Assembly: GCA_017450065.1 (NCBI GenBank)
Contig: JAFSYI010000063.1
Location: 30,710 to 94,709, forward strand
DNA: 64,000 nt
Source of the DNA: Lachnospiraceae bacterium
Lineage (GTDB): Bacteria; Bacillota; Clostridia; Lachnospirales; Lachnospiraceae
Direction of reading: 5' to 3'
This document shows, piece after piece, positions 13,436 to 52,200 of this stretch (positions are counted from its first letter, which is position 1; each line of letters opens with the position of its first letter). Below the pieces are notes generated by a model. That model made no database searches. It worked only from the letters and a program-made list of their open reading frames with translations, and was not told the DNA's origin. A program made the translations under genes and the position numbers.

Positions 13436-14890
13436 ATGAAGGACAAAGCAGACAGCGGTGCTGATCTACAGCCGGATCTTAGGAAAAACTATATATACAG
13501 ACTTATAAACGAGATTCTGACATTCGCTCTTCCTTTGATAGCCATGCCGTATATATCAAGAGTACTTGGTGCCGGCGGTGTCGGTGAGTACAGCTATACC
13601 TATTCCGTTATCACATACTTTATTATGTTCGGCGCAATGGGAACAGCAAGTTATGGAGCAAGGGAAATAGCCATAAACCGCGATGATAGGCAGACGTGTT
13701 CACGGCTGTTCTGGGAGATCGAGCTTATGAGCATATTATTGTGTCTTGTAAGTCTGATGATGTGGCTGCTCCTGATAATGACAGATACCGCGCACAGGAT
13801 GGTCTTTATAGCGCTGACTCCATATATCCTTGGAACGATGTTTGATATTTCGTGGTTATTTACCGGGTTGGAACGTATCGGCTTCATGGTGACCGCCAAT
13901 GCTGTTGTAAGGATAGCGGGCATGATGCTGTTGTTCCTGATGGTGCGCTCGGTGGACGATCTGGCAATTTACTGTATCATTAATTCCATGACCATGCTGA
14001 CAGCAAATCTGTCCATGTGGTTGTGCCTTCCCCGATTCCTTGTACGAGTCAGCATCAGGGGATTCAGGTTCGGAAATCATTTCCGTGCGATGCTTGTATA
14101 TTTTATCCCGAATATTGCGCGGTCTATATATACCGTATTGGACAAAACACTGATAGGCCTTATTACCGGCAGTCCCTTCCAGAACGGATATTACGAACAG
14201 GCGTCCAAAATGATAGGGGTGGCTGACGGGCTTTCGTTTGTAGTATTCAATTCGGCATTATATGCCAGAATGTCATATCTGTTTGCCATGGGAAAACATG
14301 AGGAGGTTAAGAACAGGATCGCTGAAAATGCAGATTATATCATGTTTATGTGTTTTGGGACGGCTTTCGGACTTGCGGGGATAAGCCATACGCTGGTGCC
14401 TGTTTTCTTCGGTAAGGGATATGAGCCTGTAGAAGGGCTTATATATATGATGCTTCCGCTTGTTCCCGTGATAGGAATAAGCAACTGCCTGGGGACACAG
14501 TACTATACGCCGGCCGGCAGACGGGCACAGAGCGCAGGATATATTGTTGTGGGAGCAGTAACGAATCTTATATTCAATCTGTGTTTAATACCGGTCTATG
14601 AAGCACGTGGCGCTGTGGCCGCATCGGTAGCAGCGGAATTGCTTATAACAGGATTATATCTCAGAAACTGTGATGGATATCTGACAATAAAGCAGATCAT
14701 GGATTCATCAGGCAGAAAGATAGCTGCAGGTATCTGTATGGCGGTTATCGTCCGTCTGCTTGGAGGGCTTAAGCTGAACGGAGTGTACGTGATAATTATA
14801 CAGATATTTACGGGAATTATAACTTATGTTGCGATACTGATCATTCTGAAGGACAGCTTTTTACGGAATCTGAGGGAAAGGGCTTTGTGA
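13436..14890 (+). CDS. Wzx-like oligosaccharide flippase (MOP superfamily)
   Basis: 484-residue polytopic membrane protein with about 12-14 hydrophobic segments. The N-terminal YRLINEILTFALPLIAMPYI and SRVLGAGGVGEYSYTYSV are characteristic of polysaccharide transporters that move undecaprenyl-linked glycans across the membrane. The middle region (YFIPNIARSIYTVLDKTLIG, NGYYEQASKMI) is also typical. In the cassette it would present the finished lipid-linked glycan to the outward-facing active site of the STT3 protein, whose gene overlaps its stop codon by 4 bp. Confidence 0.88.
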   Translation: MKDKADSGADLQPDLRKNYIYRLINEILTFALPLIAMPYISRVLGAGGVGEYSYTYSVITYFIMFGAMGTASYGAREIAINRDDRQTCSRLFWEIELMSILLCLVSLMMWLLLIMTDTAHRMVFIALTPYILGTMFDISWLFTGLERIGFMVTANAVVRIAGMMLLFLMVRSVDDLAIYCIINSMTMLTANLSMWLCLPRFLVRVSIRGFRFGNHFRAMLVYFIPNIARSIYTVLDKTLIGLITGSPFQNGYYEQASKMIGVADGLSFVVFNSALYARMSYLFAMGKHEEVKNRIAENADYIMFMCFGTAFGLAGISHTLVPVFFGKGYEPVEGLIYMMLPLVPVIGISNCLGTQYYTPAGRRAQSAGYIVVGAVTNLIFNLCLIPVYEARGAVAASVAAELLITGLYLRNCDGYLTIKQIMDSSGRKIAAGICMAVIVRLLGGLKLNGVYVIIIQIFTGIITYVAILIILKDSFLRNLRERAL

Positions 14891-17214
14891 AATTTATGAG
14901 TAATAACAATATAAAAAACAGCAATAAGATCATCAAAATAACTGTTCTGATCATACTGATCATGCTGATGTCGTTTGGCTTCAGGTTACTGGTAAATCAT
15001 AGGGTTAATACCGAGCTTGGTGAAGCTTATACAGATCCCGAAACAGGGGTACCGTACCTGACGGAGATGGACTCTTATTACCATCTGAGGATGACGAGGG
15101 ATATTGAGGTGTACGGGCATGCAGGCGAGACTGTTAAGGATGGAGAACCATGGGATGCCTTGAGTTATGCGCCTTATGGAAGAAGTGCGGATAATTACCG
15201 TCCTCTTATGGCCTATATTGCCATTTTTGTATACAGGATACTGTCTGCAGCAGGCATGGTGACACTGGAACAGGTTGCATATTGGCAGGGAGCGGTTCTG
15301 TCAGCTCTGGTCGTAATACCTGTATTTATTATGGCATACCGTATGCAGGGTATGATCGCTGCAGTCACAGCGGCAGTACTATCGGCGGTCAATTACGGAT
15401 ATTTTGTTCATACTGTACCGGGCTTCTATGATACGGATATGGTTATTTCATGGACTTCATGTTTCTTCTTTTGCTTCGGATGTCTGCTGGTATCCTGTAT
15501 GGAGCCGGATAGTGAAGAAGGGGGAAGTAACATATCGGGACGACGTATTAAGATTGCGGTATATTCATTCTTATTTGGTTTGAGCCTGCTTCTTCTTATA
15601 GGTTCATGGTATATCTTTTATATGTTTGCCGGTATATTTGCCGGTACTGTATTACTGTTTATTCTTATGAGGACGGTTATGGCAGGAAAGAGGAATGGAG
15701 CAGCAGTGGTGAAAGGATCGGCACCTTTGATGCTTCTTATCGCAGGATTGTGCATTGCCGTGTTTATTGCAAGACCTGATATCATAAACAGTGTAATAGT
15801 AAATATAAAGGGTGTATTCTCTCAGGGGAAGGGTAGTATATTTCCGAATGCGCTTGTTTCGGTTTCCGAAATGCGTAAGCCTTCTCTTATTGCCGGAGGG
15901 CTGACCGGTCTGTTCCAGATGCGTGTTCTGTCTGATACAAATATAGGCATCATCAATGCAGTAGGAGGACTGGTTCCGTGTCTTGCGGCATTGATCATGT
16001 GTGTTATGCTTGTTATGCGTATTGTAAAAAAGAATGTGAAGTTCGAATATATACTGCTGATCATCTGGTTTCTGATAACTGCGATACTGGCAGTAAGGAG
16101 CTGGCGTTTTATTATGCTGTTTGCTTTTCCTGTTGCGATATTGGCCGGTATGTTTACCGGCAATATATGTTCGCTTATGGAAGAGAAGAAGATGATGGAC
16201 CGGAAGGTGTTTGAAGGAATGATCATAACTCTCATGCTCTTTCCCGCACTCTACGGTGCCTATCGTTCTTCGGCCGATTCAATGCCTTCGGTAAACAGGG
16301 GGATGCATGATTCACTGACATATATAAGGGATAACACGGACGAGGATACGATCTTAGCCGGATGGTGGGATTACGGATATTTCTTTGAAGAAAAAGCTGT
16401 AAGACGTACACTGTTTGACGGAGGTTCACAGGACGGAGCCAGGATATACTGGGTTGCGAGGGCGTTCGCAACGAAGGATGAGGTATTGTCATCCAATATA
16501 TTCCGTATGATCGCAGGCTCAGGTAATGAGGCGGTGGACAGGATGCTTGAGCTGTTCGGAGAAGATAAGGAAACGCTCAGACTTATGGATGAACTGCTTT
16601 CGGGAGACAGGGAGACTGCAATTGCAAGGCTTAAAAGTGAGAATATAGGTGATGAAGAAGCTGAAGAACTCTCTATGCTGCTGTTTCCTGATGTTAAGGA
16701 GGATGTGCTGTGCATTATAACCCGGGAGATGCCGGGTGTTGCAGGGTGGTTTGCGAGATTCGGGTATCCCGATGAAGAAGACGGGTACAGTGATGACGCA
16801 TACGCAGTGATAATGGATCATGAGGATTTCGTATCATATGACGGCAAGGCAGGCTGGCAGATAGCAAGGGATGACGGTAAGATCAACCTGATCATTGAGA
16901 ACGAGGACGGGATGTACAACGCATATACTACACCTGAAGATTCGGAGGATGAGAAGACTCCGGTTGACAGACTGCTAATAGCGGAGAACGGTACCATGAG
17001 AGAGTACCGCTCCAATACAGAGCCGGATGAAAATACCCCGGGATTTGTTGTTTTTGTGCAGAACGATCTTGAGGTGCCCCAGGTGACCGTAATAACATCG
17101 CTTATGGCCGATTCCGTTTTTGGCAGGCTGTATTACCTGGGCGGTTCAGGCCTGGAGCGCTATACTTCGATAGACAATGTACCCGGCAATGTGGCATTGT
17201 ACAGGATTGAATAG
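14887..17214 (+). CDS. STT3-type oligosaccharyltransferase
   Basis: Membrane enzyme transferring a lipid-linked glycan to Asn in N-X-S/T sequons on the outer face. 775 residues: about a dozen hydrophobic segments up to residue 455, then a soluble domain. Hallmarks are all present: first acidic motif at D62 (MDSYYHLRMTRD), DTD at 182-184, an SVSE motif at 325-328 and WWDYG at 493-497. SVSE is the form usual for archaeal and eukaryotic enzymes, whereas Campylobacter PglB has a TIXE form. The gene starts with GTG overlapping the flippase stop (ATG at 14896 is an alternative). The acceptor is not proven; the sequon-rich secreted protein downstream is the best candidate. Confidence 0.9.
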   Translation: MKFMSNNNIKNSNKIIKITVLIILIMLMSFGFRLLVNHRVNTELGEAYTDPETGVPYLTEMDSYYHLRMTRDIEVYGHAGETVKDGEPWDALSYAPYGRSADNYRPLMAYIAIFVYRILSAAGMVTLEQVAYWQGAVLSALVVIPVFIMAYRMQGMIAAVTAAVLSAVNYGYFVHTVPGFYDTDMVISWTSCFFFCFGCLLVSCMEPDSEEGGSNISGRRIKIAVYSFLFGLSLLLLIGSWYIFYMFAGIFAGTVLLFILMRTVMAGKRNGAAVVKGSAPLMLLIAGLCIAVFIARPDIINSVIVNIKGVFSQGKGSIFPNALVSVSEMRKPSLIAGGLTGLFQMRVLSDTNIGIINAVGGLVPCLAALIMCVMLVMRIVKKNVKFEYILLIIWFLITAILAVRSWRFIMLFAFPVAILAGMFTGNICSLMEEKKMMDRKVFEGMIITLMLFPALYGAYRSSADSMPSVNRGMHDSLTYIRDNTDEDTILAGWWDYGYFFEEKAVRRTLFDGGSQDGARIYWVARAFATKDEVLSSNIFRMIAGSGNEAVDRMLELFGEDKETLRLMDELLSGDRETAIARLKSENIGDEEAEELSMLLFPDVKEDVLCIITREMPGVAGWFARFGYPDEEDGYSDDAYAVIMDHEDFVSYDGKAGWQIARDDGKINLIIENEDGMYNAYTTPEDSEDEKTPVDRLLIAENGTMREYRSNTEPDENTPGFVVFVQNDLEVPQVTVITSLMADSVFGRLYYLGGSGLERYTSIDNVPGNVALYRIE

Positions 17215-17272
17215 GGCAGGCTTCTGCATTGGAAGCTTTAAAAAGTTATGATAACTTTATGGAGCCTCATGT

Positions 17273-17348
17273 GGTTATGAAGAGTTTACAGTACAATGGG
17301 TAGTTATGAAGAGTTTGCGATATATGGATAAGTTATGAAGAGTTTACA
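17273..17348 (+). repeat. Three direct repeats with 29-bp period upstream of the ATPase gene
   Basis: The word GTTATGAAGAGTTT followed by ACA, GCG or ACA occurs at 17274, 17303 and 17332, exactly 29 bp apart, in the gap between STT3 and the ATPase gene. Spacers are similar but not identical. Spacing close to three helical turns would put the sites on nearly one face of DNA, which fits iteron-like binding sites of a regulator, possibly of the adjacent ATPase/HTH protein. A related GTTATGATAAC lies at about 17245. Confidence 0.6.
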
Positions 17349-17431
17349 GAGACTTGTTAATGTGTTATCATATAGATGGAGTAATTGATAAAAAGGATAC
17401 ATCTCATCCCATGCAGATACGGAGGACCGGA

Positions 17432-18472
17432 ATGCATACAGAGAACCCATTCACCATAACCTTCGGCAAACAGCCGAATAAGCTTATTTCAAGGTATGAA
17501 GATACCGATGAAATAGTCAGTACATTCAGTGCGGATAATGCCGTAAGCCAGACATTTCTTATTGAAGGCATCCGTGGCAGCGGTAAAACGGTGCTAATGA
17601 CTACCGTGTCCAAAATTCTTGGTGAAAAAAAAGACTGGATAGTTATTAATCTGAATCCGACTATGGATTTACTGGAGAGCTTTGCAGTAAGGCTCAATGA
17701 TGCATGCAATTCCAAGCCTGAATTATTAAGCAAGGGATTCAATATTTCAGCAGCCGGTTTTGGCATAGGAGTGAATGGTGAGGAAAGAAGTACCGATCAT
17801 GTCGGTATGATAGATAAGCTGTTCAAATCACTTATCAGAAAAGACCGAAAGGTTCTTATAACAATAGATGAAGTGGTACACAACAACAATATGAAGGTAT
17901 TTGCCAGCCAATTTCAGATTTTCATCAGGCAGGATTATCCTCTGTTTCTTATTATGACCGGTCTTCATGAGAATATCTATGAAATCCAAAATGATCCTGC
18001 TCTCACTTTTCTCCTGAGGTCACCTAAGATAATAACGGGACCGCTCAGTATTCTTCAGATCACGAAACAGTATAAAAATATTTTTGGAACGGATGAAATA
18101 AAGGCCCGTGAGCTGGCTTATCTTACCAGGGGATTTGCTTTCGCATTTCAGGCATTGGGTGTATCCTATTGGAACAACAGAGAAGCAGGAATGGAGGCGG
18201 TTCTTGAGGAGTTTGATGAGCTGCTGGATGATTTTGTATATAAAAAAATATGGTCGTCGCTGACCACACGTGAACGTGAAATAGTCAGGGCGATAAATAC
18301 AGATGAGGTAAAGGCATCTGAAATATGTGTCCGTACCGGGATTAGTAACAGTTCCTGGTCTCAATACAGAGAAATGCTTGTGGATAAGGGAATTATAGAG
18401 ACACCCCGATATGCTTACGTATCCTTGACACTGCCACGGTTTAATGAGGTGACTGCAAATTACAGGATTTGA
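17432..18472 (+). CDS. AAA-type ATPase with C-terminal helix-turn-helix region
   Basis: 346 residues. Near the N-terminus is FLIEGIRGSGKTVLMTT, a Walker A motif, followed by a Walker B-like VLITIDEV. The middle resembles the archaeal/bacterial ATPase families that act on DNA or in toxin-antitoxin-like units. The last 70 residues (LTTREREIVRAI, VKASEICVRTGISNSSWSQYREML) look like a winged-helix DNA-binding region. ATG 17432 is chosen because GGAGG lies 6 bp before it; in-frame ATGs upstream lack a ribosome site. It stands alone behind three 29-bp repeats. Function is unknown; a link with the flanking glycosylation genes is only positional. Confidence 0.7.
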   Translation: MHTENPFTITFGKQPNKLISRYEDTDEIVSTFSADNAVSQTFLIEGIRGSGKTVLMTTVSKILGEKKDWIVINLNPTMDLLESFAVRLNDACNSKPELLSKGFNISAAGFGIGVNGEERSTDHVGMIDKLFKSLIRKDRKVLITIDEVVHNNNMKVFASQFQIFIRQDYPLFLIMTGLHENIYEIQNDPALTFLLRSPKIITGPLSILQITKQYKNIFGTDEIKARELAYLTRGFAFAFQALGVSYWNNREAGMEAVLEEFDELLDDFVYKKIWSSLTTREREIVRAINTDEVKASEICVRTGISNSSWSQYREMLVDKGIIETPRYAYVSLTLPRFNEVTANYRI

Positions 18473-18534
18473 ATTTGCCTATATCTGTCCAATTACCGGA
18501 TAAACACAAAAAACGACCGAATATACAAAAAAAG

Positions 18535-18563
18535 TTGTTGCATATGACAAGATATGTTATAAC
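18535..18563 (+). promoter_or_regulatory. Candidate promoter of the sequon-rich surface protein
   Basis: TTGTTG at 18535-18540, 17-bp spacer, TATAAC at 18558-18563 (5 of 6). The spacer itself contains a CATAT/ATATG inverted repeat that could be an operator. The leader would be about 85 nt, ending in GAAGGAGGATGAGTT before the ATG at 18655. Confidence 0.5.
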
Positions 18564-18654
18564 TATCTGCATAGGCATAACTATGTGTATTTATGCGGTT
18601 TGGAAATTTTACGGATTAATTTGAATACATTTTGGCGATGAAGGAGGATGAGTT

Positions 18655-21600
18655 ATGTTAGGAAGACGGTTACTTAAGAGGCTGACGCGTCTTGGACTTG
18701 CTACATATGCAATGACTTACTGCATGGCGTTTACCGTCTGCGCGTCCGAGAATCCGATAGCCGATCTTGCGGTTGCGGACACTGTTCAGGTTCTGGAAGT
18801 AGAGGCCGGAAGAGACAGTGGGCTTAATTCAGATTTACTGTCGAAGGATTTAATAAAGGAATCTGAAGACGGTGAGATTATTGGAGCAGACGGCCTGTTG
18901 GAAGATGGGGCTGTTTCTGCCGGTGAGGAGCCGGATAAGCTTCAGGCAGAAGATCTGTTAGTGACACACGAAGGAGAAGAGGGTGAGGCTTTCTTCACTG
19001 AGACTCCCAAGCTGCCACCTGCAGTTGATGACGAAGGAGAGGCAGTTGATCCCGATTATGTTGAATTTAACTGCAGCGCACTTACGGTCACTGATTTGAA
19101 TCAAAGTTATCCGTTCACAGTTTATAAGGGTGGCAACCCCATCGAGAATATTTCGCAGATAAGCTTCGGACTGGCGGATAATAAGAATGGTACAGGTGCA
19201 AGTCCTTCATTCAGAGGTGCAAGTATCAGTGAATACGGTATCCTTAATTTCTCTTCAAGCACCGAATCCATGACATTCTATGTGATCGCAGATGTCGGAG
19301 GAAGGATCGCATCATGTAAGGTCGTGGTATATGTTCCCATAGAAGAGATCGAATTCGTATGTGATACAGATTCCGGGCATGAGCACGGCAAAAATATTAA
19401 TATGACAGTTAATGAAACCGCCGAATGGAGACAGGCCAAGGCTAACATTATTCCGGTGGGACAGAGTTATAAACTGTTAAATATCAGCAGAATATCCTAT
19501 GAATTACTGGAGAACGGAGAGCAGATCGATAAAAATCGCGGAATAAATATGACTGTTGATGAAGGGGGTCTTGCCCATATCGATTTCCTGAATCTTACAC
19601 GTTCCGGACTTTTTGAAATAAGAGCAAAATACAATAATGCATATGTAGATGCTGAGGGTGTCAACCGTACGTATGCAAATAATCCTGAAGCTGTCTGCAG
19701 GCTTAATATATCAGTCAAGGGAGATGTTCTCCTTGATGATTACGAAGCACATCTGTCAGATAAGTCTCTTAAGGTGCAGATGTATAAATCGAAGAATCCT
19801 CTTACAGTTACGTTCCGAAATGCAAATACAGGTTCAACGGCTGAAGTGGATGATTATGTAATAACCAATTGCAGCTTTACCAATAGTAAACTCAATGATT
19901 TTAGCAGTTCCGATTTGCTCAATCTGGGAGTCCTTGAAGACGGTAAGACCGTAAACATTAATGCATCAAAATCATTTGTTGACGCCGGTTCGGTACCGAG
20001 CTTCATTAAGGAATTTAAGAAAGGCATATCAACAGGGCTTGAAGTCTCCGTTAAGGCAACGATTAACGGAACCAGGGTTGAGGATACATTTACGACCAAT
20101 GAGAATGTGACCATTACCTTCGGTGATACAAAACCTACGGCAAAGGATATCAAGGCAGTGGGAACTCTTGAGTTCAATTCCTATAAAGCAGGTCGGGAAG
20201 GACACGGAATAACGTTCCAGGGACCTGAGGTGGGAAGGATTATGACTCCCCCTGCAAAAAAGGACAAAGAAGCATATTTTAAGGCCGGTCTGGACGCAGA
20301 TTCAGATGCGATTGCTTTCAACAGTACTTCTTCAATGCCGGCAAAGGGAAGCGGTAAGCTGAATGTGCTCGTATTCCTGAATGATACGGAATACAATCTC
20401 CCTTCCAATTATAATATTTCTGTTCCGGTAAGCTATAAGATAACGAATGGCGCGCCTGTACTGACGCTTGATCAGTCATCGGCACTGCTGAATTGCGCAT
20501 CATCGGATTTTCTTCTGGTAAGCTTTGGCATTAAAGGAATGACCAGTGATACATCGGTTATGTGTGATGTTAAGGATTCCAAGGGTCATGCAATAAACGG
20601 AACGGCTCCGATCACCGCATATGCATCTCCATATCCATCTGGTACATCGGGATATGTTTATCTGGGCGCCAACTATGGCATTGAATACGGAACGTCATAT
20701 AAGGTGGAAATATATCCTCAAAACGTTGACAGCGGCAGGAAGGGTGTAAAAAAGGTAATCACTGTCAAAACACCGGCTGAGAAGGCAGTACAGAGCTTTA
20801 CGACCAAGCAGAAGGGAACGATAGATGCAGGCATACCCATGTCGGCTGTTTACCTTACTCTTAGCGGCAAGAATGTTAATCTGCTTCTGAAAACACCGGT
20901 TAATGTTACAACGACCTTAAAGAACGGTGAAGATATATCGGATCTGCTGACTTATTATGCTTTTCCCGATGAAAAGCTTAATCCTGTCTTTATACTGTAT
21001 GAGAAGTCACCCTTCCTCCTTCTTGAAAAGGGACTGGGAGGGCAGCAATATGTAACGAAGATTACATATAATATCAGCGGTAATACTATAACAACAGAAT
21101 ATAAGGGTAAGATAAGCAATTCGGTGGTGACACCCAAGCTGGAAGAGTCCAGGATAAGCATTAATCCTGATGCCAATTTCAATCAGACTATCAGGATCCC
21201 GGTTACCAATCTTCCCGGTGGGGAATATAAATATGATATAAAAAATAACTCGCCGTTCGGGATCAATGTCACATCTGAGCTTGCCAGGGATTATGTTGAA
21301 ATATCCACAGATACGATACCCGATTCGGCATACGGAAAGACATTTGAAATTGCGATCACTCCCAAAGCTCCGGAAAAGTACAATGCAACCTTAAGTGCCA
21401 AGGCGGCAACGCTTAAGATAGCTGTACTCAATCCTAAAAAGAATGCCGCAGCTATGTCTGCACAGGTGAAAGGAAGCATCGATGCCGTAAGGGATGATAC
21501 AAATGCAACGGCTGTGATATCATTTAAGAATATATATGACGCAGAAAGCATGATCGAGGATATAGTATGTAAAGATATCGTTCTGAAGGGGAAGGGAAAG

Positions 21601-22128
21601 AGTACACCTTTGCCGTGTTATGATAATTTCAATTGTACAACAGATGGAAATAAGGTCATATTTACACGTATGCCGGGTAAGAATATCCAGGCAGGGACTT
21701 ATGTGGCCACGGTAGAAGCATTTTTATATAATGGCGGACATGTGACGGGCACCGTAGAATTCAAGGTTGTACGTGGAAAGACCAATACGGTTGTCAATCC
21801 TGCGACGGCTGTCCTTATAAACCGTGACAATGCAAGATATACAACGGTTTACTTCAGCCCTAAAAAGAACGATGCCAATGCCATTATAAATGCAACGATC
21901 GTAGCAGATAAGAATAAGTTCGACGAGTATTTCAGCCTCGAGCAGATTAAAGATAAGCCGGGCACATACAGGCTGAGAGTACAGAAGGGATATTACGAGA
22001 AGCAGGTTAAAAAGAGCATTGTTTCCCTGATCACCAAAGAAGTAAGCAAGAACGTTAAGGTTAATGTGTACTATAATGGAAGTACCGAGTGTGAAACGGT
22101 TACGATGAAGGTTAAGATCAAGCCGTAA
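18655..22128 (+). CDS. Sequon-rich secreted surface protein (candidate N-glycoprotein)
   Basis: 1157 residues with a basic signal peptide (likely cleaved after TVCA near residue 30), an acidic low-complexity stretch to about 120, then beta-rich Ig-like modules without a clear named domain. By eye it has 30 N-X-S/T sequons where X is not Pro (for example NCS, NQS, NIS, NGT, NMT, NET), spread over the whole mature region: about one per 39 residues. The giant surface protein at 49223-55144 has about 18 in 1973. No transmembrane anchor or LPXTG is seen at the C-terminus. A strong GGAGG precedes the ATG and a strong terminator follows. The likely role as STT3 substrate is inference. Confidence 0.75.
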   Translation: MLGRRLLKRLTRLGLATYAMTYCMAFTVCASENPIADLAVADTVQVLEVEAGRDSGLNSDLLSKDLIKESEDGEIIGADGLLEDGAVSAGEEPDKLQAEDLLVTHEGEEGEAFFTETPKLPPAVDDEGEAVDPDYVEFNCSALTVTDLNQSYPFTVYKGGNPIENISQISFGLADNKNGTGASPSFRGASISEYGILNFSSSTESMTFYVIADVGGRIASCKVVVYVPIEEIEFVCDTDSGHEHGKNINMTVNETAEWRQAKANIIPVGQSYKLLNISRISYELLENGEQIDKNRGINMTVDEGGLAHIDFLNLTRSGLFEIRAKYNNAYVDAEGVNRTYANNPEAVCRLNISVKGDVLLDDYEAHLSDKSLKVQMYKSKNPLTVTFRNANTGSTAEVDDYVITNCSFTNSKLNDFSSSDLLNLGVLEDGKTVNINASKSFVDAGSVPSFIKEFKKGISTGLEVSVKATINGTRVEDTFTTNENVTITFGDTKPTAKDIKAVGTLEFNSYKAGREGHGITFQGPEVGRIMTPPAKKDKEAYFKAGLDADSDAIAFNSTSSMPAKGSGKLNVLVFLNDTEYNLPSNYNISVPVSYKITNGAPVLTLDQSSALLNCASSDFLLVSFGIKGMTSDTSVMCDVKDSKGHAINGTAPITAYASPYPSGTSGYVYLGANYGIEYGTSYKVEIYPQNVDSGRKGVKKVITVKTPAEKAVQSFTTKQKGTIDAGIPMSAVYLTLSGKNVNLLLKTPVNVTTTLKNGEDISDLLTYYAFPDEKLNPVFILYEKSPFLLLEKGLGGQQYVTKITYNISGNTITTEYKGKISNSVVTPKLEESRISINPDANFNQTIRIPVTNLPGGEYKYDIKNNSPFGINVTSELARDYVEISTDTIPDSAYGKTFEIAITPKAPEKYNATLSAKAATLKIAVLNPKKNAAAMSAQVKGSIDAVRDDTNATAVISFKNIYDAESMIEDIVCKDIVLKGKGKSTPLPCYDNFNCTTDGNKVIFTRMPGKNIQAGTYVATVEAFLYNGGHVTGTVEFKVVRGKTNTVVNPATAVLINRDNARYTTVYFSPKKNDANAIINATIVADKNKFDEYFSLEQIKDKPGTYRLRVQKGYYEKQVKKSIVSLITKEVSKNVKVNVYYNGSTECETVTMKVKIKP

Positions 22129-22162
22129 GGTACAGGCTGCAAAAAGGAATATTGAGCTAATG

Positions 22163-22194
22163 ATCGGGACGGTTAAGACCGTCCCGATTTTTTT
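22163..22194 (+). terminator. Rho-independent terminator after the sequon-rich protein
   Basis: Perfect 11-bp stem ATCGGGACGGT / ACCGTCCCGAT with TAAG loop (22163-22188), followed directly by a run of seven T. It lies 35 bp after the stop codon. Confidence 0.95.
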
Positions 22195-22430
22195 GAAAAA
22201 ATTTTTTAAATTTTCCATAAAAACCATAAACCTCTCACGTATCTATATCAGAGTTAAGAAAATGAGGAATCCGGAAATCCTGAAATTAAAGCATATGAAC
22301 AGCTAATCTGAAGAAACAGTAAACGGAAAGTAAGGCTGGAAGAAAGTGAAACACGAAGAAAGCGGATGGCGTGGAATGTTAAAGGCGTAAGTAAACAAAA
22401 TGAAAAGATACGAAAGGGAGGACGTGTATT
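22195..22430. other. Intergenic region before the VWA lipoprotein gene
   Basis: A/T-rich just after the terminator, then A/G-rich. No convincing -35/-10 pair with proper spacing, repeat or hairpin was found. AAAGGGAGGA at its end is the ribosome site of the next gene. Confidence 0.5.
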
Positions 22431-24458
22431 ATGAAGAGGAGAAGGATCACAGGTTTATTAACAGCAATGACAGTATTATCAATGTGTGTAACAGGCTGCG
22501 GAGGAACGGCAACGGCTAATGCGCCGGCAGCGACTAAGGAAGCTGCATCGGCCGAGGCTGGATACACTGAAGCAGCTCCGGCACAGGAGAGCTATGATGA
22601 TATGTATGATGATGAGTGGGCAGAGGCGGCAGCAGAGGAATACGGTTACGATGAGAAGGAGTACGAGGCTGCGGATACGGAAGCAGGCGAGTATACATAT
22701 GACGGAGCAGCGGCCGAGGCTTATATAAATACTCCGGGTGCTACTCTGCAGGCATCGGCAGCTTCCTATGACAGCAGTGCAGATTATGATGAGACGGCAG
22801 GAGAGGAAGCTTATTATGATGATGTATACGGTGATGAGAACAGCGAAGAGACGGTTTCGTGGGACAGGAACGAAGACAGAAAGAGTGCTGGCTCTGAAGA
22901 GACATACCGTGAAAGCAGAAAAGATAAGAGTGGGAAGAAAGCGAAAACAGCAGGAAGAGATGACTATCTTGGGCAGATATATGATTACAGCTGTTTCCCG
23001 GCAGGATTTAACACTGAAGAATATTCAAAGCTTGAGGAGCAGGGCTACAGATCGGTACTTAACAGACCTCTCTCGACCTTTGCCGCAGATGTTGATACGG
23101 CAAGCTACAGTAACCTTCGCAGGATGCTTAATGACGGATATTCGGTATATGATCTTCCGAGCGGAAGCGTAAGAGTAGAGGAGCTGCTTAATTATTTCAA
23201 TTATAACTATGATGGTCCCAAGGGAAGTGATCCCTTCGGCGTGAACTTTGAGATGTCTGAGTGCCCGTGGAACAGGGAAGCGAAGCTTATGAGCATCGGC
23301 CTTAAGACAGAGGATATCGATTTCGAAGAGACACCGGCATCCAACCTTGTATTTCTTATCGATGTTTCGGGATCGATGTCTGATCCGGATAAGCTGCCTC
23401 TGCTTCAGGAAGCCTTCTGTATGCTGGCAGACCAGCTCACTGATAAGGACAGGGTAAGCATCGTTACCTACGCAAGCGGAGTTAAGACTGTGCTTAAAGG
23501 CGCAAAGGGAAATGAAAGCCGCAGGATCAAGGAAGCTATCAATGATCTGAGGGCTTCGGGCGGAACCAACGGAGGCAAGGGAATCGAGCTGGCTTACGAA
23601 CTGGCTGAGAAGAATTTCATTAAGGGCGGCAACAACCGTGTGCTCCTTGCTACGGACGGAGATCTTAATCTTGGCATCACTTCGGTAGGCGGACTTGAAA
23701 AGCTTATAACAGATAAGAAGGAATCGGGTGTATTCCTTTCGGTGCTTGGATTCGGAACAGGGAATATCAAGGATAACAGGATGGAAACACTGGCTGACAA
23801 GGGTAACGGCAATTACTCATACATCGATTCGGTGAAGGAGGCAAAGAAGGTTCTGGTTGATGAGCTTTCATCCAATATGCTGACTGTCTGCAAGGACGTT
23901 AAGCTTCAGGTGGAATTCAACCCCGCAGTTGTTAAGGGATACCGTCTTGTAGGTTATGCGAACAGGACAATGAAGGCTAAGGATTTCAATGATGATAAGA
24001 AGGACGGTGGTGAGATAGGTGCAGGACATGAGGTTACGGCACTGTATGAGCTGATCCTGACAGAGGATATGGATGCATCGGATGATGACACGGCTGATGT
24101 CAGTGAGCTCCGCTACGCAGATGAGTTCAGAAAAGCCGGAAAGTCATCAAAGAAGAACGGATCCGGCATGAGCTATACAGGAAATGAGGAAATAATGACT
24201 CTGAGCGTTCGTTATAAGAAGCCGTCGGAGGATAAGAGCAATCTCCTTACATATCCTGTAACCTTTAAATGCTATGAGGCTTCTCCGTCGGATAACTTTA
24301 TCTTCCAGAGTGCTGTTGCGGAATTCGGACTTATCGCATCACACAGCGAATATCAGGGGAATGCGGATCTTGACCGTGTGGCCGACGAGCTTGAATCCAT
24401 CAGACTTAACGATGAGTACAAGAGGGAGTTCAGGGATATGGTTGAGGAAGCGTACTGA
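22431..24458 (+). CDS. VWA-domain lipoprotein (YfbK-like, DUF3520)
   Basis: 675 residues. The signal peptide ends in a lipobox (CVTGC), predicting a membrane-anchored extracellular protein. Residues about 28-190 are low-complexity and rich in Ala, Glu, Asp and Tyr. Then comes the YfbK-type N-terminal region (PLSTFAADVDTASYSNLRRML), a von Willebrand A domain with an intact metal site DVSGSMS at 311-317, and a C-terminal DUF3520-like part (ELILTEDM..., SVRYKKPSED). The family is common beside ECF sigma/anti-sigma pairs, as here: the next genes are a sigma factor and its likely anti-sigma. Its role is unknown; surface sensing or adhesion is plausible. Confidence 0.87.
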   Translation: MKRRRITGLLTAMTVLSMCVTGCGGTATANAPAATKEAASAEAGYTEAAPAQESYDDMYDDEWAEAAAEEYGYDEKEYEAADTEAGEYTYDGAAAEAYINTPGATLQASAASYDSSADYDETAGEEAYYDDVYGDENSEETVSWDRNEDRKSAGSEETYRESRKDKSGKKAKTAGRDDYLGQIYDYSCFPAGFNTEEYSKLEEQGYRSVLNRPLSTFAADVDTASYSNLRRMLNDGYSVYDLPSGSVRVEELLNYFNYNYDGPKGSDPFGVNFEMSECPWNREAKLMSIGLKTEDIDFEETPASNLVFLIDVSGSMSDPDKLPLLQEAFCMLADQLTDKDRVSIVTYASGVKTVLKGAKGNESRRIKEAINDLRASGGTNGGKGIELAYELAEKNFIKGGNNRVLLATDGDLNLGITSVGGLEKLITDKKESGVFLSVLGFGTGNIKDNRMETLADKGNGNYSYIDSVKEAKKVLVDELSSNMLTVCKDVKLQVEFNPAVVKGYRLVGYANRTMKAKDFNDDKKDGGEIGAGHEVTALYELILTEDMDASDDDTADVSELRYADEFRKAGKSSKKNGSGMSYTGNEEIMTLSVRYKKPSEDKSNLLTYPVTFKCYEASPSDNFIFQSAVAEFGLIASHSEYQGNADLDRVADELESIRLNDEYKREFRDMVEEAY

Positions 24459-47988: not shown

Positions 47989-48127
47989 TGTAAACCTCCT
48001 GTGTATAAGATATTTGATGATACATTTAAATATAACACAGTTTTGGAATTAATGATATGATTTGTACTGTTATGGAACGGGATTTCAGTAACTTTAATGT
48101 AAAAATATAAAAATGGAGGTTATAGTA

Positions 48128-48973
48128 ATGTACAGATTATCAGGAGTGGAAGATATGGTGCTGCAGCAGATAGTGAGTAATGAGATCGCTGCAGGTTTTC
48201 TTAAGACCTTCGGGGTCAAGAGGGCTGTGAACAAGCTTGAATTCGGCGACCGTGAAAAGGAAATACTGAAATATCTTTTTAAAACCTATTCCGGAAATGA
48301 TTCACTGCACGATCTCGGAGATATACAGTTAGAAGAGATCGGGAAGAAGATTTCGAAGATGTATGAAGAACTGATCGATATGGATTATGAATATATATTT
48401 GATGAATTCGGAGAGTATCTCATGTACATCTTTATTGAACATGCGAAGAAGAATGCTTCCGTTAACGGGGAGTACGGATATCTCGATATCGATGATGTTA
48501 CCAAAGAGAACTATTCAGATGTTCCGCTGTTTGCGTCTTCGAGCAGCTGTATCATGGATGAACTGTATTTAAGGAAGTTCTTTGGTGATCTTTTTGATGA
48601 ATTCCTCGGAGGTATCGGTGATTATGAGGATGAGTATGGTTATGAAGAAGATACGGAAAATGAAGATCATGATGAAAATGATGAGGCCGGGGACGGGGAC
48701 GAGGATGACGACGATTACGATGACTATGATGAAGAAGAGTTTAAGCAGAGATTTGTTGATAAGATGATCAGACAGGCATCGATGTTTGCATACATGGGAT
48801 TCGAGAATGACAGCAGTGATTCTTTTGTCTTCTGGGATGACGACTTCCTCAGCTATGATAAACCCGGGGGAGCAGAAAGATTATTATCCGGTCTTTCAGA
48901 GATAAAAGGAGTTATTATGACCCGGAATGGAAGGGAACCTATATCCGGCTCTGTCGGACGTCCGACGGAATGA
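48128..48973 (+). CDS. Acidic hypothetical protein
   Basis: 281 residues, soluble. The N-terminal half is helical without known motifs; residues about 164-204 are almost entirely Asp, Glu, Tyr and Gly; the C-terminus is more ordinary. ATG 48128 is chosen because GGAGG at 48115-48119 lies 8 bp before it. A perfect 14-bp palindrome (GTCGGACGTCCGAC, 48953-48966) sits within the last codons. No function can be assigned. Confidence 0.65.
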   Translation: MYRLSGVEDMVLQQIVSNEIAAGFLKTFGVKRAVNKLEFGDREKEILKYLFKTYSGNDSLHDLGDIQLEEIGKKISKMYEELIDMDYEYIFDEFGEYLMYIFIEHAKKNASVNGEYGYLDIDDVTKENYSDVPLFASSSSCIMDELYLRKFFGDLFDEFLGGIGDYEDEYGYEEDTENEDHDENDEAGDGDEDDDDYDDYDEEEFKQRFVDKMIRQASMFAYMGFENDSSDSFVFWDDDFLSYDKPGGAERLLSGLSEIKGVIMTRNGREPISGSVGRPTE

Positions 48974-49222: not shown

Positions 49223-52200
49223 ATGGCAGGCAAGAGGAACGGTTTTTCCCGGAAATGTGCGATATTACTGGCAATAGCCATGGTATTCGGCAATATTCCG
49301 CAGACTGCATATGCTAACGAGGTCATCAGTGTCGCAAAGGATGGCGATGTATTGACCGGAGAAGTTCTGGTGAATGATGATTCATCGGAAATCCTGAATG
49401 ACGGAGTACTTCTGTCGGATGGGGAAAGTAATGATATTAAGAGTGATGAAAAGAAAACAGAGGAAACGTTAATTCCGGATGTTGACGCCGATAACCTCAC
49501 CATGGTTTCCGATAGTGTGAAAGAGTATGATACAGACAACCGCCCTGAAGTGATAGAAAATGAGGGCGCTGTGCATTATGACTGGGGCAATGTAGAACAT
49601 TTTCAGAAGGATCGTTTATACAGGATAAGAGGGTCATGGAACGAAAATAAGCTCCTTACAGGCAATTCGGGAGTAAATATAGGAACCAACCAACATAAAA
49701 AAGCACAGATGTGGATCTTTTCAAAGCCTGGCATAGACGAGAAGTATAGTGGTTGGAATTATAATCATCAGGAATTGTATGTTATCTTTCCATATACTGA
49801 CAATAATTGGGGAGATAAGTCAGCAGTAGATACAGGTGTACTTGATGCAATGGGATACTCGGATGATCTTAATTCCAGTGATGCAGGTGTAGGACTTGAA
49901 CCTAATCCTCCTACAATATCCTTAGACACGACAAATAAGTGGATGATAAGCAGGTACAAAAATATAAGTGAGAATGATGGCTATGTTTTACGTACAGGAG
50001 TAGATAAACCCGGCGTTGACAAGGCTTTGACTTATCAAACGTACGATGCTTACCCGATTAGTATGACGGCTTATAACACATCGGTTGTAGCACAGATCCA
50101 ACACTGGTTTATTGATCCGGCGTATTTGATCACTGCAGCGACAGATAATAGCAACTACGGAACAGTCTCAATAAGCGGGGGCTGGGAATGTGCTATTGAA
50201 GGTGAGCAGGTTAATGTAACAACAAACCCAAATACGGGATGTCAATTGGATAAGCTTACGTATACTGTTAATGGGAGTGAGTATGATATTACCGCATCGA
50301 AATCTTTCAGTATGCCTGCGGGGGACGTTGAAGTTAAAGCAACCTTCAGTCAGATACCGGTGGTAACACCAGTGATCACATCACAGCCGACGGACCTTAA
50401 GCTGTATGCAGGCCAGTCCGGTAAGCTCAGTATAGTAGCGACAGTACCAAGCGGATATAGCCTTGAATATCAGTGGCAGAGTAGCCCCGATAATTCAACT
50501 TGGACAAATATTTCGAATGCAAAAAGCAAAGATTATAGATTTACACCTACAACTGAGGGAACAACCTACTACAGGTGCCTGGTACGTTCGAAGACAGGAA
50601 GCGTATATTCAGATTATGTGCCGAGTGACGTTGCAACTGTAACAGTAACAGAGGCAACCCCTGTGATCACATCACAGCCTACGGATCTTGAGCTGTATGC
50701 AGGCCAGTCCGGTAAGCTGAGTATAGTTGCTTCCGGCCAGAATCTTGAGTATAAATGGCAGCAAACATCCAAGAAGCAAGCCGAGGAAAAAGATTGGAGT
50801 GATATCCAGACAGCAACAGGTAAAGAGTATGAATTTGATACGACAGCTGAGGGAACAACCTACTACAGGTGCCTGGTACGTTCGAAGACAGGAAGCGTAT
50901 ATTCAGATTATGTGCCGAGTGACGTTGCAACCGTAACAGTAAAAGAGGCAACACCTGTGATCACATCACAGCCGGCAGATCTTGAGCTGTATGCCGGATC
51001 ATCCGGTAAGCTTAGTATCGTAGCAACGGGACCGAGTGGTTATACCCTTGAATATCTGTGGGAAAGCAGTCCGGATAACACAGACTGGACAGTAATACAA
51101 GGTGCAACAGAGAAAGACTATACTTTTACACCGACAGCTAAGGGAACAACTTACTACAGATGCAAGGTACGCACATCTATAAAGGTAGATCAGGAAGAGA
51201 TAACGTCATCTTACGAAGAGAGTGCAGCTTCAAAAGTAACAGTAAAAGAAGCAACGCCTGTGATCACATCTCAGCCGACAGACCTTAACCTGACATTCAG
51301 CGAGAGCGGAATACTCAGCATAGTGGCAACGGCTCCGGAAGGCTATGGGTTAACTTACCAGTGGGTGAAGAAAGTCGGAAATGACTATGTGGCATGGAAT
51401 CCGGATACCCCCAGCGCTGAAGCAAAAAGTATAACCTATGTAGCAGATAATAAGGATGAGGTGGGTACAAACACACTCAGATGTAAAGTGATCTCTACGA
51501 TCATGGTAGATTCAGAACCGGTAACGGCAGAGACATACAGTGATGTAGTGAAGCTGGTAGTTGCGCCTAAAGCTGCTGAAATAACAAAGGCACCGTTACC
51601 TAAGACTCTGAGCTTTAACACAGCACCACAGCCGCTTGTTGAAGAAGGCACCTGTGTTAACGGAACAATGAACTATGCAGTGCTTGAAGAGGGCAAGGTT
51701 CCGGATAATGATACCGCCTGGTCAACAACAATACCTGCAGGAACGAATGTAGGAAAGTATTATGTATGGTACAAAGCGAAAGCAGCAGAAGGCACAGGCT
51801 ATAAAGATTCACAGGCCGATTATGTAACATCAACTATCGACAAGATAGAAACAGGTATAGAAGTACTGGGTAAGAGCCTTAAATATTCCGGTGATGAACA
51901 GGTATTGGCAGAGATCAATGGTACTGTTCCGGACGGTGTTACCGTATCGTTCAGTATGGACGGAGATAAATGGAATAAAGAAATACCCAAGAAAAAGGAT
52001 GCAGGCGTTTATACTGTATTCTGGATGGTAGATGGCGGAGATAACTACCTCAGCTCTTCGGGCAGAGTAGTGTCATCAATAGGCAGAAACGTTCTTACAG
52101 TTAATATAACAAACTATGAAGGAGTATATGACGGAAAAGGACACAGCATTAAGGTAGGCGTTACAAATGCCGATGCAGAACCTGTCATCACTTATTCGCT

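Follow-up and report, generated by a model that had tools for sequence, protein, structure and literature searches.

Does a Gram-positive rumen bacterium maintain a private enzyme for the N-glycosylation of a single exported protein? The question is raised by a locus of a Lachnospiraceae bacterium (assembly GCA_017450065.1; genome G000), examined here in a window of 64,000 nucleotides (contig JAFSYI010000063.1, positions 30,710 to 94,709 of the forward strand). An open frame at 18655 to 22128 on the forward strand of this window encodes P0001, a sequon-rich candidate acceptor of 1157 amino acids (aa), and a gene for an STT3-family oligosaccharyltransferase, an enzyme type that archaea and animals also use, ends 1.44 kb upstream of it. 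A first-pass annotation, which placed the enzyme 1.4 kb upstream, had read P0001 as its dedicated, heavily glycosylated acceptor. From the sequence comparisons described below, P0001 very probably serves the adjoining STT3 as a dedicated and densely N-glycosylated acceptor, and the locus points to a private protein glycosylation system in a rumen bacterium, a group for which no such description was found.

Sequon enrichment of P0001

Sequons were counted as N-[^P]-[S/T], and the expected numbers were obtained from composition-matched shuffles of the same protein. P0001 contains exactly 30 sequons (18 NxT and 12 NxS) between residues 139 and 1141, compared with an expectation of 12.7 (standard deviation [SD], 3.2), that is, a 2.3-fold excess with a standard score (z) of 5.5. 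The count of about 30 made by eye in the first-pass annotation was thus accurate and the expectation of 8 to 10 too low; the enrichment survived the composition-matched null. Shuffling inside 40-residue blocks with the signal peptide excluded gave an expectation of 13.0 and a z of 5.0. Both forms of the sequon were raised (NxT, 18 versus 6.5 expected; NxS, 12 versus 6.1), and the control patterns [S/T]xN (9 versus 12.9), NxxS/T (15 versus 13.3), NP[S/T] (0 versus 0.6), and DxS/T (6 versus 10.4) were not. P0001 ranked first, with a z of 5.6, among the 276 open reading frames (ORFs) that encode 200 aa or more in a 457-kb sample of G000, window included; the runner-up reached 3.6, and the mean z over this sample was 0.09 (SD, 1.11). 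The crude signal-peptide rule applied to the sample misses P0001, so that its 48 "secreted-like" proteins exclude P0001.

The signal peptide of P0001, recognized by eye together with a cleavage site after VCA, is conserved in other proteins. Its 37 codons at 18655 to 18765 on the forward strand encode MLGRRLLKRLTRLGLATYAMTYCMAFTVCA, followed by SE, and are referred to below as the tag. Between the tag and the first sequon lies a sequon-free stretch (18766 to 19068, forward strand) that was judged by eye to be acidic.

Eight large untagged proteins of G000 were at chance in sum (123 sequons versus 120.1 expected), and of the nine large G000 proteins counted, only P0001, the STT3 neighbor, was enriched. 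The 1973-aa protein at 49223 to 55144, for which the first-pass annotation had given about 18 sequons, has 18 versus 20.2 expected, and a 1498-aa protein matching part of the P0001 profile has 8 versus 11.2. Six Big_2 proteins of G000, among the matches listed, gave 14 versus 12.1, 21 versus 16.2, 18 versus 15.9, 12 versus 13.8, 26 versus 22.1, and, for a fragment, 6 versus 8.6. Likewise, 29 Big_2 (Ig-type) fragments, 28 from other genomes of the family and one from G000, were near chance (295 versus 270.2), as was an untagged 1829-aa protein of genome G467 (13 versus 15.4). Apart from G467, four genomes had PMP-repeat matches; controls from three of them gave 11 versus 13.1, 35 versus 37.5, and 89 versus 72.1 (z, 2.3), the last from G530, a genome whose STT3 status was not individually checked.

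Sequon-rich partners of related STT3 enzymes

Of 37 genomes of the genus, 9 had a PF02516 match above the cut-off, as did 5 of 392 genomes drawn from the order. STT3 proteins with the motif WWDYG are here called type A and those with WWDMG type B. Six of the nine PF02516 genomes of the genus carry type A (G000, G032, G009, G030, G006, and G003); in each of these the STT3 gene is followed by one for a P0001 relative. The complete genes contain 30 sequons versus 12.7 expected in G000, 30 versus 12.3 in G032, 27 versus 11.4 in G009, and 27 versus 9.5 in G030; those of G006 and G003 are cut by the contig end and gave partial counts of 13 versus 4.7 and 6 versus 2.0. The relatives in G009 and G030 share 34 to 36% identity with P0001. 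In total, 95 sequons versus 39.5 expected were counted in five P0001 relatives. Type B occurs in the other three genomes (G008, G021, and G036) without a sequon-rich neighbor. The notion that any STT3 neighbor is sequon-rich was rejected, because neither type B nor most of the other bacterial STT3 loci read have such a neighbor. A weak PF02516 match in G015 was dropped as an STT3, being below the cut-off and lacking the motif. Relatives of P0001 were found in 7 of the 37 genomes, namely the six type-A carriers and G027.

A scan of genome contigs with a type-A STT3 profile yielded at least 417 confirmed relatives, from which 79 distinct loci were kept; 36 of these 79 neighborhoods were read, L054 and L055 being the contigs of G030 and G009 again. 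The relatives extend to further Lachnospiraceae and to other Clostridia. Their sources include the rumen of yak and roe deer and the reticulum and omasum of goat, and their genomes include MC2017 and AD3010, neither of which is labeled a MAG. The related or tagged proteins that usually adjoin this STT3 clade in other Clostridia come mostly from Lachnospiraceae. In a draw of 368 genomes of the family, the STT3 profile matched seven, four of them closely (G000, G467, G556, and G397). A family-wide search of 397 genomes with an acceptor profile matched G467 and G556, and G375, G235, and G660 by inner parts only. The latter three have no STT3 match, and sequons were at chance in the 1810-aa protein of G375 (15 versus 18.0) and the 2496-aa protein of G235 (13 versus 11.4).

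A quick tree was built from 56 STT3 rows, comprising 44 of the 79 loci, that of the window, and 11 others. All 16 rows that derive from tag-bearing genomes fell into one clade of 18 with a support of 100, the other two being AD3010 and G416. This clade lies near the Methanobacteriaceae enzymes and type B; the node has a support of 92 and was drawn open, so that an archaeal origin of the clade is suggested, not established. The term "archaeal-type" used in the first-pass annotation is supported in part, by the position of the enzyme near those of Methanobacteriaceae at this open node. Methanobrevibacter STT3 proteins are themselves sequon-rich (L067, 18 versus 8.0; L068, 19 versus 7.6; L071, 17 versus 7.6); the type-A bacterial STT3 proteins are not.

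A shared signal peptide on sequon-rich proteins

The tagged proteins have their first 37 residues in common, with a mean column identity of 70% and a consensus of approximately RLTRxxLxxYxxxxCMxFTVCAEE. The bodies behind the tag differ. Those of L057, L059, L060, L062, and L063 show 16 to 21% identity to P0001 in whole-protein alignment, a level that does not in itself establish body homology, and the domains found on tagged proteins vary among Big_2, PMP-type repeats, MBG, LysM, and Big_3_5. In comparisons of 45 pairs, the first, second, and third positions of the tag codons were 72, 83, and 48% identical, respectively. It is therefore apparent that selection acts on the tag peptide, and recent DNA exchange as the source of the likeness was rejected on account of the average identity of 48% at third codon positions.

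Sixteen of the 18 readable tagged proteins, the near copies of G000 and G032 included, were enriched in sequons (z of at least 3). Tagged neighbors of STT3 had 54 sequons versus 19.1 expected (L057), 44 versus 17.8 (L063), and 39 versus 23.2 (L062); the incomplete ones had 30 versus 11.0 (L059, cut) and 13 versus 3.7 (L060, gene interrupted by N). G467 encodes two tandem tagged proteins beside its STT3 (41 versus 14.3 and 45 versus 14.2). Among the proteins found solely through the tag, the following were also enriched: that of G750 (42 versus 12.7; z, 9.2), a third copy in G467 (27 versus 10.1; z, 6.4), and a second copy in G756, a 170-aa fragment (z, 3.0). The tagged protein of G758 was readable for just 26 residues. 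In eight tagged proteins pooled as a distant set (7636 aa without the tag), NxS/T numbered 274 versus 110.0 expected, NxT (187 versus 56.0; 3.3-fold) being raised more than NxS (87 versus 53.3; 1.6-fold). [S/T]xN (116 versus 109.5), NP[S/T] (2 versus 3.4), and NxxS/T (97 versus 113.0) were not raised in this set, and QxS/T numbered 26 versus 21.2. The tagged protein at L063:2000-5206 has a linker of GNNT repeats, which amounts to a run of sequons.

A profile of the tag was searched in 36 chosen genomes, and an E value below 1e-10 was taken as a strong match. Strong matches were obtained in 16 of 19 genomes with the type-A STT3 clade, to which G397 and G758 were assigned by profile score or identity and not by the tree, and in none of 17 comparison genomes (16 with other STT3 proteins, plus G027). 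In 14 of the 16 genomes, the tagged gene and the STT3 gene lie within 10 kb of each other on one contig; in G750 and G752 the tagged gene is elsewhere, near a contig end. Among the 397 genomes of the family, G000, G467, and G556 alone gave strong matches; each of them carries this STT3. Five further matches were weak (E values of 0.001 to 0.008) and were set aside; at the three of these sites inspected (G727, G743, and G316, the other two being in G645 and G685), no enriched large ORF was present. The signal peptide is thus associated with this STT3 clade. How the association works can be stated only tentatively: the tag may be an address that routes otherwise unrelated adhesins to an STT3-bearing secretion site, with bodies being swappable while tag and sequon density are kept. 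We regard this function as possible, with the balance tilted somewhat against it. If true, it would define a private co-secretional N-glycosylation line in Gram-positive bacteria.

The contigs of G027, G006, G003, L059, G752, and G756 (second copy) have one of their ends within the tagged or related gene. These breaks are a hint that the gene may be hypervariable and disrupt assemblies.

Site turnover and sequon context

At 36% identity between G000 and G009, 7 of 23 aligned sequons were still sequons, and the Asn residue was retained at 8 of 23 sequon positions versus 21 of 50 other Asn positions; the totals nevertheless stay at 30 and 27. The remaining distant pairs resemble this one: among P0001 relatives at 30 to 46% identity, 2 to 7 sites were kept of 19 to 30, with counts about twice the expectation, and only the near copies of G000 and G032 share 29 of 30 sequons. 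Because the sites turned over while the counts held, continued selection is needed. Sequon number, not position, is maintained by selection in the P0001 relatives, for which this signature is established. Conservation in orthologues, which the first-pass annotation had put forward as a check, therefore applies to the number; conservation of individual sites was rejected, because sequon Asn residues were kept no more often than other Asn residues.

The acceptor rule of Campylobacter-type PglB, as given in a passage of PMC9561416, is D or E at position −2 of the sequon. P0001 and the pool of related or tagged proteins do not follow this rule. In line with the first-pass annotation, which had noted the lack of an acidic −2 residue, D or E precedes 3 of the 30 sequons of P0001 in this position and 37 of 399 (9%) in 14 related or tagged proteins, compared with an overall D plus E content of 13.6%. 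Acidic −2 residues were not more common before sequon Asn residues (14 of 125) than before others (26 of 212), nor in the distant set (26 of 330 versus 54 of 435). On the other hand, aromatic −2 residues were more common before sequon Asn residues (25 of 125 versus 16 of 212, p 0.001; distant set, 55 of 330 versus 45 of 435, p 0.013), with p values that ignore relatedness.

Organization of the STT3 locus and proposed pathway

Nine proteins encoded between 10418 and 24458 were scanned against Pfam; all genes described here are on the forward strand. The enzyme family of the STT3 (14887 to 17214; 775 aa) is established: the protein has the motif WWDYG and matches PF02516 with 135.2 bits (cut-off, 24.5) and PF21436, the STT3/PglB core, with 33.7 bits (cut-off, 23), and the STT3 profile matched the PglB structures 3rce, 6gxc, and 5ogl. 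WWDYG, DSYYH, DTD, and SVSE are intact in this protein and in the type-A alignment, apart from SISE in place of SVSE in one of the six type-A sequences; we take DSYYH, DTD, and SVSE to represent the acidic loop residues.

Directly upstream are the genes expected for a lipid-linked oligosaccharide: a family 2 glycosyltransferase (PF00535; 10418 to 11470), a second one that resembles polyprenyl-phosphate-sugar synthases and may act as such (PF00535; 11464 to 12162), a small DUF2304 membrane protein (PF10066; 12159 to 12503), a LicD-family phosphotransferase (PF04991; 12466 to 13422), and a Polysacc_synt flippase (PF01943; 13436 to 14890), a candidate exporter of the lipid-linked oligosaccharide. 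LicD is also near STT3 in G009, G030, and G006, and was not seen at every locus; a Polysacc_synt flippase is also near STT3 in G009 and L059; and at the MC2017 locus there are GT1 genes, and the candidate flippase matched no Pfam family. The glycan genes thus vary between loci. The gene at 17354 to 18472, between STT3 and P0001, has weak AAA/ATPase-domain matches, all under the curated cut-offs. A counterpart lies between STT3 and acceptor genes in G000 and G032 and not in G009, G030, G006, or G003, and the gene is not reckoned part of the core system. In G467, the ORF at L200:1013-2068 resembles this gene by eye and lies about 3 kb from the third copy of the tagged protein.

These protein families suggest the following pathway. 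The glycosyltransferases would build an oligosaccharide on a polyprenyl lipid, to which LicD, in G000, would add a phospho-substituent, and the flippase would turn the lipid-linked product outward. P0001 would be exported by its Sec-type signal peptide. As judged from the motifs, the sequon context, and the co-occurrence of the genes, STT3 would then move the oligosaccharide en bloc onto Asn residues of N-X-T/S, with no need for an acidic −2 residue. Retention of many sequons over fixed sites is what a glycan coat on a protein located at the cell surface would predict.

Evaluation of alternative explanations

Selection for dense N-glycosylation, carried out by the partner STT3, is the simplest account. 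The reading of P0001 as a dedicated acceptor gained support from its being the sole enriched one of the nine large G000 proteins counted, from the enrichment of 16 of 18 tagged proteins, and from Big_2 controls near chance; both the glycosylation of its Asn residues and its exclusivity as acceptor remain predictions from these patterns. Several observations weigh against it. The P0001 relative of G027 (22 sequons versus 12.3) lies at a contig start in a genome, 59% complete, in which no STT3 was detected. G000 and G032, as near copies, do not count as independent. The tagged protein of G556 (L061) is not clearly enriched (10 versus about 6.3 to 6.4; z, 1.7 to 1.8), nor is a 154-aa fragment found through the tag in G752 (5 versus 3.5; z, 1.0). 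Because 12 genomes supplied the 13 proteins of the tag profile, 12 of the 16 strong matches were obtained by construction; eight of the 13 came from acceptor searches blind to STT3 and five from STT3 neighborhoods, and the strong matches outside the profile were G032 (a near copy), G750, G752, and G758. No strong match was found in the STT3-clade genomes G757, G416, and G397. Finally, two control patterns were raised, NxxxS/T in P0001 (21 versus 13.3; z, 2.4), which was normal in its relatives, and DxS/T in five P0001 relatives (62 versus 44.1; z, 3.1).

These last two patterns would fit enrichment as a by-product of adhesin structure or composition, such as beta-rich folds or Asn/Thr-rich repeats, unrelated to glycosylation. 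The tagged proteins scanned with Pfam do resemble modular surface proteins with Ig-like, PMP-type repeat, and LysM domains, and one PMP-repeat control was slightly high, as noted above (z, 2.3). However, an excess of two- to threefold was not seen in the adhesins counted for comparison, the 29 Big_2 fragments among them; the reversed pattern and NP[S/T] were not raised, NxT exceeded NxS, and the enrichment crosses several domain architectures. A by-product of this kind is highly unlikely. We consider it extremely unlikely that the sequons are a mere inheritance, in which the proteins were acquired together with STT3 from N-glycosylating rumen archaea and are now unmodified. The grouping of the STT3 clade with Methanobacteriaceae enzymes, at the open node with a support of 92, would suit such a history, whereas the turnover of most sites at 30 to 46% identity with counts still about twice the expectation argues for continued selection, and the decay of sequon number with divergence that neutrality would bring was not seen.

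A more serious rival, to which we give nearly even chances, holds that the STT3 is a general enzyme for any exported sequon, that P0001 is just its most strongly selected client, and that the tag serves another purpose, for example septal placement. It fits most of the account given above and denies only the exclusivity and the role of the tag. STT3 enzymes elsewhere are general; in Campylobacter jejuni the N-glycan is carried by at least 80 proteins, according to a passage of PMC9561416, and staphylococcal YSIRK signal peptides are needed for septal secretion, according to part of PMC5962339. Chance-level sequons on other exported proteins do not prove those proteins to be unmodified. Nevertheless, the eight large untagged proteins of G000 and the 1829-aa protein of G467 were not enriched, and strong tag matches were confined to genomes with this STT3 clade.

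Comparison with known glycosylation systems

Part of a 2016 report (PMC4973528) describes bacterial STT3-type N-glycosylation as thought to be confined to delta- and epsilonproteobacteria. For Lachnospiraceae and rumen Firmicutes, no such report came up in our literature search, whose coverage excludes preprints and includes subscription papers thinly. The present system is like that of Campylobacter PglB in the STT3 family, WWDYG, the nearby polysaccharide-assembly genes, and the Asn acceptor, and unlike it in the Gram-positive host, the Polysacc_synt-type flippase, the lack of an acidic −2 preference, and the dedicated sequon-packed neighbor protein with a shared signal peptide. Archaeal AglB accepts N-X-S/T without an acidic −2 rule, and archaeal surface glycoproteins are heavily glycosylated. 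The sequon use and the predicted heavily glycosylated surface protein are similar here, whereas the host is bacterial, the bodies are adhesin-like, and the enrichment is confined to tagged or related neighbors among the proteins tested.

Serine-rich repeat glycoproteins, which depend on accessory Sec, combine an adhesin with a dedicated set of glycosylation genes and a specialized signal peptide, and are O-glycosylated before export. The present locus encodes the same combination together; in contrast, the glycan would be N-linked and transferred en bloc from a lipid, and no serine-rich repeat region was seen in the P0001 translation read by eye, which has no Pfam match at an E value of 0.001 and thus no SLH domain as a mark of S-layer proteins. 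No solved structure matched the acceptor profile at an E value of 1. The HMW1C system pairs an adhesin with an adjacent N-glycosylating enzyme, as here, but that enzyme is a soluble cytoplasmic N-glycosyltransferase and not a membrane STT3; none of its type was found among the nine proteins scanned. YSIRK/GXXS signal peptides likewise place a conserved motif on different mature proteins of the Gram-positive surface, with a different motif from that of the tag, whose strong matches occurred only with one oligosaccharyltransferase clade.

What is new here is the shared, strikingly conserved signal peptide on the sequon-rich partners of STT3. The comparisons suggest that, in a Gram-positive lineage, STT3 N-glycosylates a dedicated sequon-packed protein, with its clients perhaps being chosen by a signal peptide. 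MC2017 seems to be a cultured carrier, so that the system is directly testable. For glycoprotein engineering, an oligosaccharyltransferase that does not need an acidic −2 residue and whose acceptors have 30 to 54 sites would be useful.

Additional observations

A different Clostridia STT3 clade also has sequon-rich neighbors, at L081:2897-5815 (30 versus 9.7), L083:1975-5082 (34 versus 15.5), and L070:640-2631 (16 versus 6.7). They bear signal peptides other than the tag and possibly represent independent enzyme-acceptor pairs. The other ORFs with a z of at least 3 in the neighborhoods read stand outside the argument; they are short ones (L075, 1 versus 0.0; L076, 7 versus 2.4; L081, 6 versus 1.3; L121, 5 versus 1.6) and the archaeal STT3 proteins of L067, L068, and L071.

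G000 and G032 (L021) are 94 to 100% identical in 500-base steps over window positions 16936 to 22435, from the end of STT3 through the acceptor gene, and just 59 to 81% identical upstream (13436 to 16435). Because of this jump, it is likely that the two species recently exchanged the acceptor segment. The window has no Rfam match at gathering scores and no tRNA. Its ORF at 48113 to 48973 (286 aa) has four NxS and no NxT versus 0.9 expected (z, 3.4), small numbers that are probably due to chance. On contig C2 of G000, an untagged ORF of 646 aa at L045:5818-7758 has 13 sequons versus 5.4 (z, 3.3), and its product, secreted-like by the crude rule, is perhaps a further client.

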